A stretch of DNA of 64,000 bases from Bartonella alsatica (GTDB lineage: Bacteria; Pseudomonadota; Alphaproteobacteria; Rhizobiales; Rhizobiaceae): contig NZ_CP058235.1 in the NCBI RefSeq assembly GCF_013388295.1, positions 1,032,001 through 1,096,000 of the forward strand, read 5' to 3'. The notes beneath the pieces are model-generated. The model saw only the letters and a list, made by a program, of their open reading frames with translations, made no database searches and was not told where the DNA came from. Position numbers and translations under genes: made by a program. This document shows, piece after piece, positions 18,423 to 30,929 of this stretch; position 1 is the first letter of the stretch, and every line of letters begins with the position of its first letter.

Positions 18423-19331
18423 ATGAACGTAAGAACATTTTTCACTATAGTTTTGGGAAGTGTTATTTTTTTTACACCCAGTTTTGCTTTGTGTGCTGGT
18501 AAATTTAAAGCTGTTACAACATTCACTATCATTGCTGATATGGCACGGAATGTAGCAGGTGATGCTGCTAATGTTGAATCAATCACTAAACCAGGCGCTG
18601 AAATTCATGAATATCAACCTACGCCTCGCGATCTTATGCGTGCACAAGGAGCTAATCTTGTATTGTGGAACGGATTAGAGTTGGAGCTTTGGTTTGAAAA
18701 GTTTTTTCAAAATATCAAGGATGTTCCAAGTGTTGTTGTTTCAAAAGGTATTATACCGATTAAAATTGGTGAAGGCCCCTTTAGTGGGAAGCCCAATCCT
18801 CATGCATGGATGTCGCCGACCTCTGCTTTGATTTACGTTGATAATATTCGCGACGCTTTTATAAAGTACGATCCTGAGCATGCTGCTATTTATAAAGAGA
18901 ATGCTGAGATTTATAAACAGAAGATTCGTGCAACGATTGATCCAATCAGAGCTGAATTAGAAGCAGTACCACAAGATAAGCGTTGGCTTGTAACCAGTGA
19001 GGGTGCATTTAGCTATTTGGCACGTGATTTTGATCTGAAAGAGCTTTATTTATGGCCCATTAATGCTGATCAGCAAGGAACACCACAGCAGGTTAAGCAT
19101 GTTATTGATATGGTTCGCAAATATAATATCCATGCAGTTTTTTCTGAGAGCACTATTTCCCCTGCGCCTGCTAAACAGGTTGCGAGAGAAACAGGGGCTA
19201 AATACGGTGGTGTTCTTTATGTTGATTCTCTAAGTGATAAAAATGGTGAGGTACCCACATATATCGATTTATTACGTGTCACAAGCAGGCGTATTAGCAA
19301 TGCCTTATTAGATGGAGTAAAAGGTCAATGA
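18423..19331 (+). CDS. sitA: manganese/iron ABC transporter, periplasmic binding protein
   Basis: SitA binds Mn(II), and probably Fe(II), in the periplasm and hands it to SitBCD. The 302-residue protein has a signal peptide of about 25 residues (cleavage near ALCAG). Its likely ligands are His62 (AEIHEY), His127 (NPHAWM), Glu193 (TSEGAF) and Asp268 (YVDSLS). A His-His-Glu-Asp set is typical of the manganese-type cluster A-I proteins rather than the zinc-type with a third His and a His-rich loop, which is absent here. It begins a four-gene operon with four-base overlaps at each junction. Confidence 0.93.
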
Positions 19332-20158
19332 TAGAATCTGGAATATTTGCCCAAGGGGTAACGGTAACTTATCGTAATGGACATACAGCTTTACGCGAAG
19401 TAACTTTTGAAAGCCCCACAGGTTCTATTACGGCATTAGTTGGCGTGAATGGGTCAGGAAAGTCAACGTTATTTAAGGCTATTATGGGGTTTGTGCGACC
19501 TTCAAAAGGAAAAATTCGCATATTTGGTTTGCCTGTTGATACGGCTTTGAAAAAAAGCCTTATTGCTTATGTTCCTCAGAGTGAAGATGTTGATTGGAAT
19601 TTTCCTGTACTCGTTGAAGATGTTGTATTGATGGGACGGTATAGTCACATGAATTTCTTTCGTTATGCACGTGCACGGGATTATGAAGCTGTCCGTGTTG
19701 CATTAGAACGGGTCGATATGTTAGCATTTGCCAAGCGCCAAATTGGTGAACTTTCTGGTGGGCAGAAGAAGCGAGTTTTTCTAGCGCGTGCTCTTGCACA
19801 GCAAGCAAAGGCTATTTTATTGGATGAGCCATTTACAGGGGTTGATATCACAACAGAAGATAAAATCATTGCTTTGTTACAAGATCTTCGTAAAGAAGGG
19901 GCAGTGATATTAGTTTCTACCCACAATTTAGGTTCTGTTCGTGAATTTTGTGATCACACGGTCTTAATCAAGGGGACGGTTTTGGCTTCTGGGTTAACTG
20001 AGACCGTCTTCACACAGGAAAATCTAGAGAAAACTTTTGGTGGTGCTTTGCATCATCATATTTTTGATTTTCAAGGTGTGAAAAAGGATGATATTTTCAC
20101 CGGGGGAAAACGATCTACAGTTCATGAAAATGTTCAAAGAATGGAGCATGTTGCATGA
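19328..20158 (+). CDS. sitB: manganese/iron ABC transporter, ATPase
   Basis: This 276-residue cytoplasmic subunit powers the Sit importer. It has Walker [10 protein letters not shown] (39-47), the signature [16 protein letters not shown], Walker [13 protein letters not shown] and the H-loop STHNLG. It overlaps sitA and sitC by four bases each, so translation is probably coupled. Confidence 0.94.
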
Positions 20159-21021
20159 TTTCTTGGTTGCTTGAACCGCTGAGCTATCAATATATGGTTA
20201 ATGCGATGTGGGTTTCGGGATTAGTTGGGTGTGTTTGTGCCTTTCTTTCTGCTTTTTTGATGTTAAAAGGCTGGTCGTTAATTGGCGATGCACTTTCCCA
20301 TTCGATTGTTCCTGGTGTAGCAGGGGCTTACCTTTTAGGATTACCTTTTTCGCTTGGAGCTTTTTTTTCTGGTGGGCTTGCTGCGGCAGCAATGCTGTTT
20401 TTTAATCATCGTACAAAATTAAAAGAAGATACCATTATTGGCCTAATTTTTTCTTCCTTTTTTGCTTTTGGGCTATTTCTTAAATCATTAAAGCCAATGG
20501 CGGTTAATATTGATACGATTGTTTTAGGAAATATTTTAGCAGTCAGTTCATCAGATATTATACAATTAGCTTTTATTGGTTTTTTCTCTTTATTTATATT
20601 GCTTTTGAAATGGAAAGATCTTCTTGTTTCTTTATTTGATGAAACACATGCACGTGCTATTGGATTGAACGTAAAGTTTTTAAAAATTCTCTTTTTTACA
20701 TTGCTTGCTGCTTGTACTGTTGCTGCTATGCAAACAGTTGGAGCATTCTTGGTTATTTGTCTTGTTGTGACGCCTGGAGCAACAGCTTATCTTTTAAGTG
20801 ATCGTTTTATAAATATTTTAATTATTGCAGTTATAATTGGGACATTCACAAGCATATTAGGTGTCTATGTGAGTTATTTTTTGAATGCGCAAACAGGTGG
20901 TGTTGTTGTGCTTTTTCAAGCATTTCTGTTTATTCTAGCTTTTATTTTTGCTCCTAAACATGGCTTTATTGCTGCGCGTTTACGTATAAAAGCGGCAAAA
21001 AAAGGTGTGATGTTATCATGA
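20155..21021 (+). CDS. sitC: manganese/iron ABC transporter, permease
   Basis: A 288-residue inner-membrane permease of the ABC-3 family with about eight membrane segments. [19 protein letters not shown] near residue 40 is the family signature and [10 protein letters not shown] lies in the C-terminal part. With sitD it forms a heterodimeric channel; the two are distant paralogues. Confidence 0.93.
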
Positions 21022-21923
21022 TTGATCAATTACTACTTCCTTTTCAATTTTCTTTTATGCTTAAAGGCATGCTTATCGTTACGATCCTTTCTGTTCCAAT
21101 GGCGATGCTTTCTTGTTATCTCATTTTGAAAGGATGGGCGCTTTTAGGTGATGCTATTTCTCATGCGGTTTTTCCTGGTGTTGTTGTTGGTTATATGACA
21201 ACTCCGTGGATAATAACATTTTTGACTTCTTTGCCATTTGCTTGGTTTCAGTATGTGCGCCCAGAGAATGTTACAATGGCTTTAATTACTTGTGGTGCTT
21301 TTGTTGCGGGTATGATTTGTTCTATTCTGACAGGTTTTTTAGGGAGCAATAGTCGCATTAAACAAGACACGGTAATGGGTGTTGTTTTTTCATCGATGTT
21401 TGGTTTAGGGCTTGTTTTGGCAACGGCGATTTATAGTAATTTAGATTTGAATCATATTCTATTTGGTAATCTTTTGGGTGTTAACTGGCTTGATATTACG
21501 CAGACAGCTATAATTTCTATTATTGTCACTTTTATTCTAGGAGCAAAATGGCGCGATTTTATGCTTTATATTTTTGATTCAGTTCAAGGACGTGCAATGG
21601 GATTGCGAATATCGATACTCCACTATACTCTTTTGACGTTGATTTCTCTCACGATTGTTGCAGCTTTGAAAGCTGTTGGTATTGTTCTTGTTATTTCTTT
21701 ATTAATAGCACCGGGAGCAATTGCTTATCTTATTACGAAGAAGTTTTCTTTTATGTTAGTGATCGCTATACTTGTTGCAGCATTTTCTGGTTTTTTAGGA
21801 ATTTATCTCAGTTTATTTATAGGCTCTGATTCGGCTTCCACAATTGTATTAATTTTAACTTTGATTTTTATTACCATTTTCATGTCAATTTTTTTTCGTC
21901 GAGTCACAGTTCAAGAAGTTTGA
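21018..21923 (+). CDS. sitD: manganese/iron ABC transporter, permease
   Basis: The second ABC-3 permease, 301 residues with about eight membrane segments. It carries ILKGWALLGDAISHAVFPG and LLIAPGAIAYLI, matching the signatures of SitC. It closes the operon. The probable small RNA begins about 75 bases after its stop. Confidence 0.93.
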   Translation: MIDQLLLPFQFSFMLKGMLIVTILSVPMAMLSCYLILKGWALLGDAISHAVFPGVVVGYMTTPWIITFLTSLPFAWFQYVRPENVTMALITCGAFVAGMICSILTGFLGSNSRIKQDTVMGVVFSSMFGLGLVLATAIYSNLDLNHILFGNLLGVNWLDITQTAIISIIVTFILGAKWRDFMLYIFDSVQGRAMGLRISILHYTLLTLISLTIVAALKAVGIVLVISLLIAPGAIAYLITKKFSFMLVIAILVAAFSGFLGIYLSLFIGSDSASTIVLILTLIFITIFMSIFFRRVTVQEV

Positions 21924-22318
21924 ATTTTCTAAGTTTATGCATATCAGCCATGCATTTTTATATATTGTCCCTCATGTTTGTTTTGAATAGAAAATATAGT
22001 GCTAGGTTATTTTCCTCCTAAACATCTAGCAGGTGAGTGCAGTATGTATTCTCCCCCCCAAGCTGCATTCGTAATTAAGAGGCTGCATTGAGTTATTCTG
22101 CAGCCTTTTTATTTTTTCTTTTCCTGAAAATTTATTTATGTTTCTTGAAAATTTTAAAATGACCATCATATTGCGTAAACTGTTTTGTGCTTTAGAGAAG
22201 GGGTTACCACAAAAATATACTTACGAATAAAGTAGTATAACAAGTGATTGGCGCTAAAGCATGTGAAAAGTAAGAAAATATAGTAATGGTCTTGTTTAGA
22301 TAAAAATAGTGCTAGAGG
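21924..22318. other. spacer holding the sRNA candidate
   Basis: No protein gene is visible. Positions 21,999-22,112 hold the AbcR-like small RNA described separately. The 200 bases after it are AT-rich and show nothing clear, apart from the expected promoter region of the next gene. Confidence 0.6.
21999..22112 (+). ncRNA. probable AbcR-type (alpha-r15) trans-acting small RNA
   Basis: Three consecutive exact stems are visible. Stem 1 TGCTAG/CTAGCA (22,000-22,005 with 22,026-22,031) holds TTTTCCTCCTAAA in its loop. Stem 2 (22,035-22,042 with 22,063-22,070) holds TTCTCCCCCCCA. Stem 3 AGGCTGCA/TGCAGCCT (22,080-22,087 with 22,099-22,106) is a rho-independent terminator followed by five T. Two loops complementary to ribosome binding sites plus a terminator in about 115 nt is the layout of rhizobial AbcR RNAs, which silence ABC-transporter mRNAs with Hfq. 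The name rests on architecture, not on alignment; I could not fix its promoter, and a TATAGT at 21,995 fits poorly with the predicted 5' end. Confidence 0.6.
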
Positions 22319-22705
22319 ATGAAAAAAAATTTTAAGATATCTCGCTCTTTGCGTATTTGCACGTCTATAATAGGCTGGGCAATGATTGTATTGGCTGTTA
22401 TCGGTATATTGTTACCTATTATGCCAACTGTGCCATTTTTATTAATTGCTTCATGGTGTTTTGCTCGTTCATCACCACGTTTTCATCGTTGGCTGAAGAA
22501 TCATCGCTTTTTAGGTCCACCTATTAAGCAATGGGAAGAAAAAAGGGCCATTTCCGTATTTGTTAAAGTTTTTGCGGTAATGAGTATGGCAGGTGGTTTT
22601 TTATCTTTTCTAATAATAGTGCATCCAGCTTTGTGGTTTGCTGTATTAGTTGCTGCTATTCTGCTGTTTATTGCCATTTATATTATAACACGTCCATCTT
22701 TATAA
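22319..22705 (+). CDS. DUF454 (YbaN) family inner-membrane protein
   Basis: A 128-residue membrane protein with three to four hydrophobic segments. LPIMPTVPFLLIASWCFARSS near residues 36-56 and FHRWLKNHRFLGPPI, followed by a WEEKRAIS segment, are the DUF454 hallmarks. Its function is unknown. It starts directly at the ATG at 22,319, after CTAGAGG, and is not in an operon with neighbours. Confidence 0.87.
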   Translation: MKKNFKISRSLRICTSIIGWAMIVLAVIGILLPIMPTVPFLLIASWCFARSSPRFHRWLKNHRFLGPPIKQWEEKRAISVFVKVFAVMSMAGGFLSFLIIVHPALWFAVLVAAILLFIAIYIITRPSL

Positions 22706-24850: not shown

Positions 24851-26943
24851 TTAAGATTTAAGAGTACATATAATTTCATGTTTCCCCATTTTATGTAACT
24901 GTATTGCTGTATAAATCTCGGCATATTTTTTACCATCAACACTAAGCATATTTTCGGATCCCCATTTTACTTTAATAGTGTAAACAGCGTCATGAAATTT
25001 TACTTTTGCTTCATATTCGGGCCATGAGGAGGGCAAATGTGGATGTAAAAATAATTGATGAGCTTGACGATTAATTCCAAGAATGGCGTGGATTGCGGCG
25101 CGGTAGAACCAGCCTGCTGAGCCTGTATACCATGTCCAACCACCTTGTCCACGGTGTGGTTCAACGGCGTAAATATCTGCGGCCATAATATAAGGTTCAA
25201 CACGATAAATTTCAGGATCTTGCCCATGAGTGATTGGATTAATCATAGAAAATAAAAGCATAAGCTTTATCGCTTTCACCCATTTCAGCAAGAGCTAAAA
25301 TACTCCAAATAGCACCATGTGTGTATTGACCACCATTTTCTCGAATGCCAGGAGGATAACCTTTTATATAACCGGGTTCGAGAGTAGTTTTATCAAAAGG
25401 CGGCCAGAAAAGACGTATAAGACCACCTTTTTCATCATACAAATGTTCAAGCATTGATGTCATTGCTTGTTTTTGGCGCTTGGGAGATGCCATTTGAGAA
25501 ATGACAGACCAAGATTGAGCAATCGTATCAATTTGACATTCATCATTTATTTTAGAGCCAAGAGGAGTTCCATCATCAAAATAACCACGTCGATACCAAG
25601 CACCATCCCAACCATTTTTTTCTAAGGATTTGGTTAAATGTTTAAGATATGTACTCCATGCTTGTATATGGCTGTTGTCATTACGTTTTTTAGCAAGGGG
25701 TATAAACGCCTGTAGTGTTGTACCAAGAAACCATCCTAACCAAATGCTTTCACCTTTCCCTTCAATACCTACTAAATTCATACCATCATTCCAATCACCA
25801 CCTAAAATAAGAGGAAGACCATGTTGTCCACAGCGTTAGATAGCAAGATCTAAAGCCAAAGCACAATGTTCATAAAGTGTTGTAATCTTTGAGGATTGTG
25901 TGGATTTAAAATAAGAGTCTTGTTGTCCACTGCTTAGAGTAGCTCCTTCAATGAAAGGAATTTGGGTATCAAGAAGTGTATCATCACCAGTAGTACTGAC
26001 ATAAAGAGCTGTTCCATATGCAAGCCAGACAATATCATCAGAAATACGCGTGCGAACGCCTTCATTGGTGTCAGGTAACCACCAATGTTGTACATCACCC
26101 TCAAGAAATTGATGTGCTGCGGCATTTAACAATTGTTCACGCGCCAGTTGTGGTTTCAATAATAACAAGGATAAGCTATCTTGTAATTGGTCGCGGAAAC
26201 CAAATGCACCACTGGCTTGATAAAAAGCTGCACGTGCTATGATACGGCAAACATAGATTTGATAAGGAAGCCAATAATTGACCATAATATCAAAAGAGGG
26301 ATCAGGTGTTTTTACTTGAAATGGAGAAACAAAGTTACTCCATTGCTTTTTTGTTGTGTGTGTAGAATTTCAAAATCCCATACACGCACTTGATCTAGTA
26401 ATTTTTCAGCTTTTTGCCTATTTTCAGTACTACCAAGATAAAAAATAATTTCTTTTGTTTGCCCTGGTGACAGATCAATATCATAGGCGAATGCTGAACA
26501 AGGATCACATCCTGCTTCAACTGTATTTGAAAGGGAGCCAGCGTTACGAATCGCGTGTGGATGTGTAACCGTTCCCGTTACACCAATAAATTGAGTGCGA
26601 TCGGTGGTAGTACTTGTTGGTATTTCGGAAGCTGATAAAAAGGCTACTTGTTGCGATTTTTCGATGTGATAGGGATTTTGGATAAAATGTGCACCACGTA
26701 TGGGATCATACGAGGGGAGTATGAAAGGTGCATATTTTGTACGGACATTACCCAAAACCCATTCAACATAATTATACAAGCGTAAACTGCGTGTTTTTTT
26801 CCGGCCTTTTTAAGGATGAGGCGTGAAAGACGAACTGGTTGTTCTTGATCGAGTGTATGAGTAAGTTCTAAAGTAATTTCTGAATGTGTGGATTTAAAGG
26901 TTGAAAATCCAAAACCATGGCAAGTTATCTTAATAATGAACAT
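24851..26943 (-). pseudogene. cyclic beta-1,2-glucan synthase, C-terminal remnant
   Basis: Five open pieces on the minus strand together give about 690 residues of the C-terminal GH94/glycosyltransferase-36 part of a Cgs/NdvB protein. Clear segments are HGFGFSTFKSTHSE, YASGAFGFRDQLQDS-like QASGAFGFRDQLQ, WWLPDTNEGVRTRISDD, GGDWNDGMNLVGIEG, YIKGYPPGIRENGGQYTHGA and GQGGWTWYTGSAGWFYRA. Frameshifts lie near 25,260, 26,290 and 26,790, and an in-frame TAA at 25,836. Intact enzymes are about 2800 residues and make periplasmic cyclic glucans; the N-terminal three quarters, with the initiation and membrane domains, are gone, and the rpsA terminator begins 100 bases beyond. Confidence 0.9.

Positions 26944-28935: not shown

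Positions 28936-30929
<1,994 letters not shown>

Follow-up and report, generated by a model that had tools for sequence, protein, structure and literature searches.

A probable ar14-type small RNA gene behind sitABCD in Bartonella alsatica and a promoter box in common with a likely AbcR gene

The locus and its hairpins

The window analyzed here is a 64 kb stretch of Bartonella alsatica DNA, corresponding to bases 1032001-1096000 of a genome that consists of one contig of 1.66 Mb. It carries the genes of a sitABCD-type manganese/iron ABC importer, in which the ATP-binding subunit scores over the NCBIfam equivalog cut-off (NF011630) and the sitD permease (21018-21923) matches Pfam ABC-3. Directly after sitD, where the preliminary description of this DNA had placed it, and starting about 75 nt downstream on the same strand, lies what is probably a regulatory RNA gene of about 115 bases (Table 1). 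Further on, at 24851-26943 on the minus strand, the ORF list contains a run of short ORFs reading like a broken large gene, presumably of the glycan-synthase/phosphorylase type.

Table 1 Features of the window discussed in the text.
Feature	Position	Strand	Basis or remark
sitABCD-type manganese/iron ABC importer	18423..21923	+	Neighbour, outside the sRNA unit
Palindrome-like box TGCATATCAGCCATGCA, LysR-type operator candidate	21938..21954	+	Conservation; same-spaced box at ar15
Putative -35-like TTGTCC	21965..21970	+	93% column identity; TTGT offset as in the ar15 promoter
Putative -10-like TAGAAA, 17 nt spacer	21988..21993	+	Sequence only
Probable ar14-type small RNA gene, ~115 nt	21999..22114	+	RF02344, 30.7 bits, model 1-123
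Hairpin 1	22000..22031	+	Fold; double-sided changes in 3 of its 7 pairs
Loop 1, anti-Shine-Dalgarno TTTTCCTCCTAAA	22010..22022	+	CCTCCT at 22014-22019
Hairpin 2	22035..22070	+	Fold; 98.9% of cells paired, double-sided change in one pair
Loop 2, poly-C tract of 7 C	22053..22059	+	Diverged from CTCCTCCC
Hairpin 3 and U-run, intrinsic terminator	22077..22115	+	Fold; hairpin itself 22077-22109; loop without anti-SD motif
cmk, (d)CMP kinase, candidate target	28936..29583	-	TIGR00017 over cut-off

Folding of the window sequence gives three stable hairpins within the RNA gene. The minimum free energy of positions 21999-22118 is -35.8 kcal/mol, compared with -21.97 ± 3.04 kcal/mol in 200 dinucleotide shuffles (z -4.55), none of which was equally stable. 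The three stems had been called exact, which is slightly generous as G-U pairs are present in stems 1 and 2, while the T-run said to end the third stem is indeed present directly 3' of hairpin 3 and makes it an intrinsic terminator. The heptamer CTGCATT occurs both in the 3' arm of hairpin 2 (22063-22069) and in the 5' arm of hairpin 3 (22083-22089), and the arms of the two hairpins could swap partners; the repeat is present in most of the aligned sequences. The C tract of loop 2 and its orthologues comprises 5-10 C, depending on the species, and is a possible slippage site.

Conservation was quantified in a genus alignment of 30 sequences from 29 genomes, made up of 28 single loci and both tandem copies of one genome (G009). 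Standard pairs occupy 98.8% of the 809 pair cells, a figure that drops to 28-49% when the partner is slid by one to three columns. Double-sided changes are found in 5 of the 27 pairs (three in stem 1 and one each in stems 2 and 3) against a shuffled mean of 1.5, and none of 500 shuffles came as high; this shuffle test leaves the kinship among the sequences in, and the partner-sliding control was run beside it. Further pair types, one of five covariation measures, are less telling, since 44 of 500 shuffles reached the same count. The preliminary description had named compensating changes in related species as a test of the locus, and they are present, mainly through stem 1. Taken with the fold, they support the layout of a separate small RNA, built of three hairpins and having an anti-Shine-Dalgarno (anti-SD) loop.

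The CCTCCT core of loop 1 is kept in 28 of the 30 rows, the exceptions being CATCCT in L018 and CCTCCC in L023. Over a region of 186 bases the copies are 69-86% identical to the window's own. A DNA similarity search gave matches in 36 of 61 relatives, all of them within the 37 genomes of the same genus (own genome included) and in none of the 24 others, and a plasmid search gave no match. In G009 two diverged ar14 copies follow sitD in tandem, and either copy has a box of its own (G009:C1:174279-174705, L041).

Relation to ar14 and ar15

The preliminary description had identified the RNA as AbcR (ar15) and proposed a search with the ar15 covariance model as a check. When positions 21850-22330 were scanned with 4227 Rfam models (cmscan, E≤10), the best match was instead ar14 (RF02344; 30.7 bits, E 5.6e-4, model positions 1-123), which we take to be the family also named NfeR1, and no match to ar15 (RF02345) was obtained. 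The window locus is also the sole ar14 place listed when the whole genome is searched at E≤10 (E 4.6e-4). Among 14 control genomes, nine give something with ar14 at E≤10, one at E≤1, and none at E≤0.01. At the Rfam gathering thresholds nothing is found at the locus, and its 30.7 bits lie below the ar14 threshold of 58.8 bits. By the strict Rfam cut-off, then, it is no ar14 member, and by orthology it is to be regarded as a diverged member, an assignment carried by synteny, reciprocal model matches, and the common upstream box.

In the genus, ar14 matches were found in 41 of 71 genomes at E≤1, with 14 over the cut-off (72.7-87.2 bits), and in the order in 80 of 199 genomes at E≤0.01, with 28 over the cut-off. 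Under the stricter filters of both searches the copy of the window drops out, and absences there mean little. Thirteen genomes have a second ar14-like place at 46.7-57.7 bits, of the kind described below for three bee-type DUF1127 loci, and in four Brucella loci (L214, L197, L228, and L230) a second ar14 lies in opposite orientation approximately 0.7-0.9 kb from the first. Nine of the 14 over-threshold genomes were checked for position (G003, G006, G007, G008, G012, G014, G018, G021, and G061), and ar14 follows sitD in all nine. A sitD match stands beside the RNA in every genus stretch that was compared against the sit genes; in B. tamiae a glycosyltransferase-25 gene is placed between the two. 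Downstream of the RNA there is a DUF454 gene except in G009 (L029, L041) and in the short stretch L047. It runs in the direction of sitD in L001-L028 and against it in the bee/tamiae type, where “bee-type” is a label that we coined for a group including B. apis and B. apihabitans, whose habitat is presumably the bee.

A genus model, R1, was built from 30 window-type RNAs. It gives the window copy, itself one of the training rows, 123.5 bits, and finds the RNA in eight of eight bee/tamiae-type stretches (61-76 bits) and at 10 places in all seven Brucella/Paenochrobactrum stretches (28-41 bits). On six ar14 loci of more distant genomes of the order it found the ar14 place in L151 alone. Six R1 matches of 16-20 bits, including two at other positions in the window, have the appearance of noise.

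The possibility remained to be weighed that the locus is nevertheless AbcR, silencing ABC-transporter mRNAs, as its CU-rich loops, three hairpins, and adjoining ABC importer would suggest. Besides the lack of an ar15 match at E≤10 at the locus, this reading is opposed by the ar15 place found in a conserved position elsewhere in the genome (see below), and by the fact that ar15 is over the cut-off in 14 of the 71 genus genomes, the same 14 in which ar14 is over the cut-off, as separate loci. Moreover, R1 gave no match up to E 1 in five ar15 loci (L182-L186). The window RNA and ar15 are both small alphaproteobacterial RNAs that have a CU-rich loop and, in this genome, an equally spaced promoter box, but the window RNA matches a different covariance model and follows sitABCD, whereas ar15 adjoins a LysR gene, which in this genome is approximately 0.68 Mb away on the contig. 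We have dropped the AbcR label: the reading is refuted on family membership and as a whole extremely improbable. Silencing of transporter mRNAs by an ar14-type RNA is possible by analogy, as canonical ar14 (NfeR1) acts on transporter mRNAs too.

The likeness to ar14 comprises the three hairpins, alignment over the full model length, a CU-rich loop, a terminator in hairpin 3, a free-standing gene, and the box-plus-ar14 unit common to the Brucella-group members and the window. The difference, apart from the score, is in the loops. NfeR1 has three identical anti-SD motifs, whereas none of the hairpin loops of the window copy retains CCUCCUCCC in full: loop 1 has UUUUCCUCCUAAA with its CCUCCU, loop 2 has the poly-C sequence UUCUCCCCCCC, and loop 3 has no such motif. 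We consider it quite likely that this is ar14 (NfeR1-type) in its Bartonella form, an orthologue diverged below the Rfam threshold, with a LysR-driven promoter and an RNA that blocks Shine-Dalgarno (SD) sequences through loop 1.

The promoter box and the LysR regulator

The box TGCATATCAGCCATGCA upstream of the RNA has a mean column identity of 91% in the 30-row alignment and is as conserved as the RNA itself, compared with 74% for the upstream and 68% for the downstream flank. The -10-like TAGAAA is 76% conserved, no better than the spacer (77%). In this genome TGCATANCAGNNAYGC is found 61 bases upstream of the RNA, counted from the box start, at both ar14 and AbcR (ar15); the ar15 box reads TGCATAGCAGATACGC, and both promoters have TTGT at an offset of 27, also counted from the start of the box. 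The window contains one exact match to TGCATANCAGNNAYGC, while approximately 0.06 would be expected genome-wide from base composition, and the matches of the genome to the longer box pattern beyond the window have 3 mismatches, among the matches listed.

The box was searched for with the pattern TGCAYANCAGCNATGCANNNTTGT in one genome per species (84,980 species), which gave 37 stretches. Sorted partly by eye, 26 of these have the box before ar14, 8 before DUF1127, and 3 are unrelated (L196, L206, and L232); the 26 and the 8 together are the 34 stretches from Bartonella, Brucella, and Paenochrobactrum. Motif sorting had given 21 ar14-like, 6 DUF1127, and 10 other stretches, and the ten were then resolved by eye, five as ar14 of the poly-C type with a single CCTCC (L209, L211, L213, L223, and L229) and two as DUF1127 loci that are cut by the stretch end and whole in longer stretches (L201 and L227). 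On the five by-eye ar14 loci, cmscan at E≤0.05 lists L211, L213, and L223 but not L209 and L229. As the pattern itself derives from Bartonella loci, the independent part of the scan is the Brucella group, where cmscan places an over-threshold ar14 right after the box in seven Brucella/Paenochrobactrum loci. Counts of the pattern TTCCTCCT (40 and 45, against 35 and 24 for the controls) were uninformative, as was a looser search for the box. From these sequence comparisons ar14, AbcR, and DUF1127 appear to be joined by one promoter box.

The box also bears on whether the RNA might be processed from the 3' end of the sit operon mRNA, or be the terminator region of that mRNA, instead of an independent gene. 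Its position some 75 nt after sitD on the same strand would fit such an origin, but the conserved box and -35 lie between sitD and the RNA, and the box-plus-RNA unit follows another gene in B. tamiae and is seen apart from sit genes in the stretches of the Brucella group, making this a very unlikely alternative to a gene with its own promoter. For the same reasons the placement after sitABCD, which had been called suggestive of function, tells little functionally: there was no sit match in any of the seven Brucella/Paenochrobactrum ar14 stretches (each of up to 8 kb), and pairing of loop 1 with the start regions of the sit genes is poor, these ranking 15, 16, 23, and 30 among 47 window genes. 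A function linked to sitABCD is thus not supported.

The genome encodes a single LysR_substrate protein at E≤1e-4 (G000:C1:376924-377526), whose gene adjoins that of a Pyr_redox_2 protein that we read as trxB. An ar15 place lies 76 bases downstream of the LysR gene, at G000:C1:376701-376817 on the minus strand (L195:1202-1318, minus). With 27.0 bits (E 0.012 in 4 kb) it is below the gathering score of 40; it was located by synteny and a local cmscan, the genome-wide ar15 search having missed it and listed a 13.9-bit place elsewhere. Because its position agrees with that of ar15 in six relatives and it has the matching promoter box, it is likely to be the AbcR gene of this genome. The LysR homologue stands beside ar15 in all six relatives, where ar15 is over the threshold in three (G061, G003, and G014) and under it in three. 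A trxB-linked LysR gene beside AbcR we take to be LsrB/VtlR, and the gene found here has this neighbourhood. Among the best 25 of the 55 NCBIfam families for the protein there is no LsrB/VtlR name and none over its cut-off; the solved chain nearest to it, 9hh1 (459 bits), has only a generic LysR name.

In Brucella, VtlR controls abcR2 and DUF1127 genes. Ten of 11 genus genomes have a stop-free DUF1127 gene over the Pfam cut-off, and the genome of the window is the exception with none. It has a remnant at G000:C1:861866-862174 on the minus strand (L233), 75% identical, interrupted by stops, and preceded by a degenerate box, and in the relatives the gene is preceded by the box or by a sequence resembling it. 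With the DUF1127-associated CU-rich RNAs, presumably those named “cuckoo” or CcsR in Rhodobacter, ar14 has some traits in common: in approximately 11 of 30 loci of the order, judged by eye, ar14 is directly behind an apparent DUF1127 ORF end, and in three bee-type loci a boxed DUF1127 gene carries CU-rich hairpins at its 3' end, which are scored as a second ar14. The window copy, in contrast, is free-standing, and the DUF1127 gene of its genome is broken and elsewhere. The three loci with the second ar14 (L129, L130, and L131), at which R1 misses these DUF1127 places, possibly deliver an sRNA from the 3' end of the gene.

Given the common box and spacing at ar14 and ar15, ar14 is most likely activated by the only LysR regulator of the genome, of the LsrB/VtlR type, although the contact between regulator and box is deduced from sequence. 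The regulator would bind the box centred approximately 53 nt upstream of the RNA 5' end, and would probably control AbcR too, as well as the DUF1127 gene where it is intact.

Loops, predicted pairing, and cmk

Transcribed from its own promoter, the RNA would be approximately 115 nt long and end at hairpin 3; we infer its transcription, Hfq binding, and mRNA targets. The near-invariant CCUCCU of loop 1 resembles the anti-SD of 16S rRNA and would pair with SD sequences, blocking translation of several mRNAs, as suggested by its sequence and conservation and by the behaviour of NfeR1, which acts by anti-SD pairing. Both of the first two loops had been described as CU-rich and able to pair with ribosome binding sites. 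This holds for loop 1, with a predicted duplex of -11.9 kcal/mol with a generic SD sequence, but loop 2 is poly-C and reaches only -7.4 kcal/mol, as compared with -10.5, -14.9, and -12.1 kcal/mol for loops 1, 2, and 3 of the bee type. Loop 2 thus seems to have turned poly-C and loop 3 to have lost its motif, and because the loop 2 duplex is so much weaker than its bee-type counterpart, the regulatory output may be narrower than that of canonical ar14.

In the seven bee/tamiae-type copies compared, all three loops carry a CUCCUCC-type motif, and loop 3 in the bee type reads CTCCTCCC; window-type copies have the motif in loop 1 alone or in loops 1 and 2. A loop 2 of the CTCCTCCC type is present in bee-type ar14, in Brucella-group ar14, and in L020-L026 and L028, while L027 has ACTCCTCCC. 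One could therefore regard the locus as a decaying ar14 relic that has lost loops 2 and 3, kept promoter and terminator, and retains little regulatory output; the missing loop 3 motif, the varying C tract of loop 2, the break in the DUF1127 gene of this genome, a gene that elsewhere stands under the same box, and the reduced genome would all agree with this. It is difficult, however, to reconcile with the conservation of the loop 1 core, the stems, and the promoter box among copies that are only 69-86% identical, with less conserved flanks, and we hold a relic to be unlikely compared with an RNA that is active through loop 1.

Predicted targets were scanned among the 47 genes of the 64 kb window, with a crude choice of start codons. 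Energies of -9 or below were reached by 4 of 47 genes for loop 1, against 47 of 1000 random sites, and likewise by 4 of 47 for loop 2, against 55 of 1000; these counts are too weak for a target list. The best of the 47 genes was cmk, a gene of nucleotide metabolism a few kb from the RNA. Its start region holds CAGCTTGGGGGG, a perfect complement to a 12-nt stretch in loop 2 and stem 2, and the poly-C loop may suit G-rich sites of this kind.

Loop 2 and the cmk SD were compared in 39 rows from 38 genomes, obtained from 41 stretches, the window among them, after dropping two without cmk (G003 and G021); loops were typed by script in 34 rows and by eye in five (G001, G002, G004, G020, and the second G087 contig, the last after its twin). 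A poly-C loop is combined with GGGGG in 20 rows, one of which (G085) has CTCC before the C run, and a CCUCC loop with GGAGG in 13. The remaining rows combine poly-C with GGAGG (G026 and G092), CCUCC with GGGGG (G020 and two contigs of G087), and another loop with GGAGG (G009). One may read this as an sRNA-cmk pair re-tuned together in one Bartonella clade, loop 2 changing from CUCCUCCC to poly-C and the SD from GGAGG to GGGGG, the latter by silent substitutions in Gly-Gly codons of the reading frame that overlaps from upstream; the sole LysR regulator would then have the RNA, AbcR, and DUF1127 under its control. In the 20 script-typed poly-C rows, matched loop/cmk pairs were not clearly better than shuffled ones (mean -16.92 vs -16.49, with a fraction of 0.075 of 5000 permutations as low), and a single change by shared ancestry explains the pattern equally well. 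Co-evolution with cmk is thus not established, and we give the re-tuning little credence.

The locus is ordinary in kind, being of a known RNA family, and what is unusual about it is the eroded loops and the box that ties ar14 to AbcR and DUF1127. The analysis corrects a plausible misnaming and shows where AbcR is likely to lie in this genome. The syntenic copies, which grade from three anti-SD loops (bee/tamiae) through two (CCUCC type) to one plus poly-C (window type), would be a natural experiment on the number of anti-SD loops that such an RNA needs. One box together with, in this reduced genome, one LysR gene would make a small model, open to testing, for the retention or loss of anti-Shine-Dalgarno RNAs in host-adapted relatives of the rhizobia.
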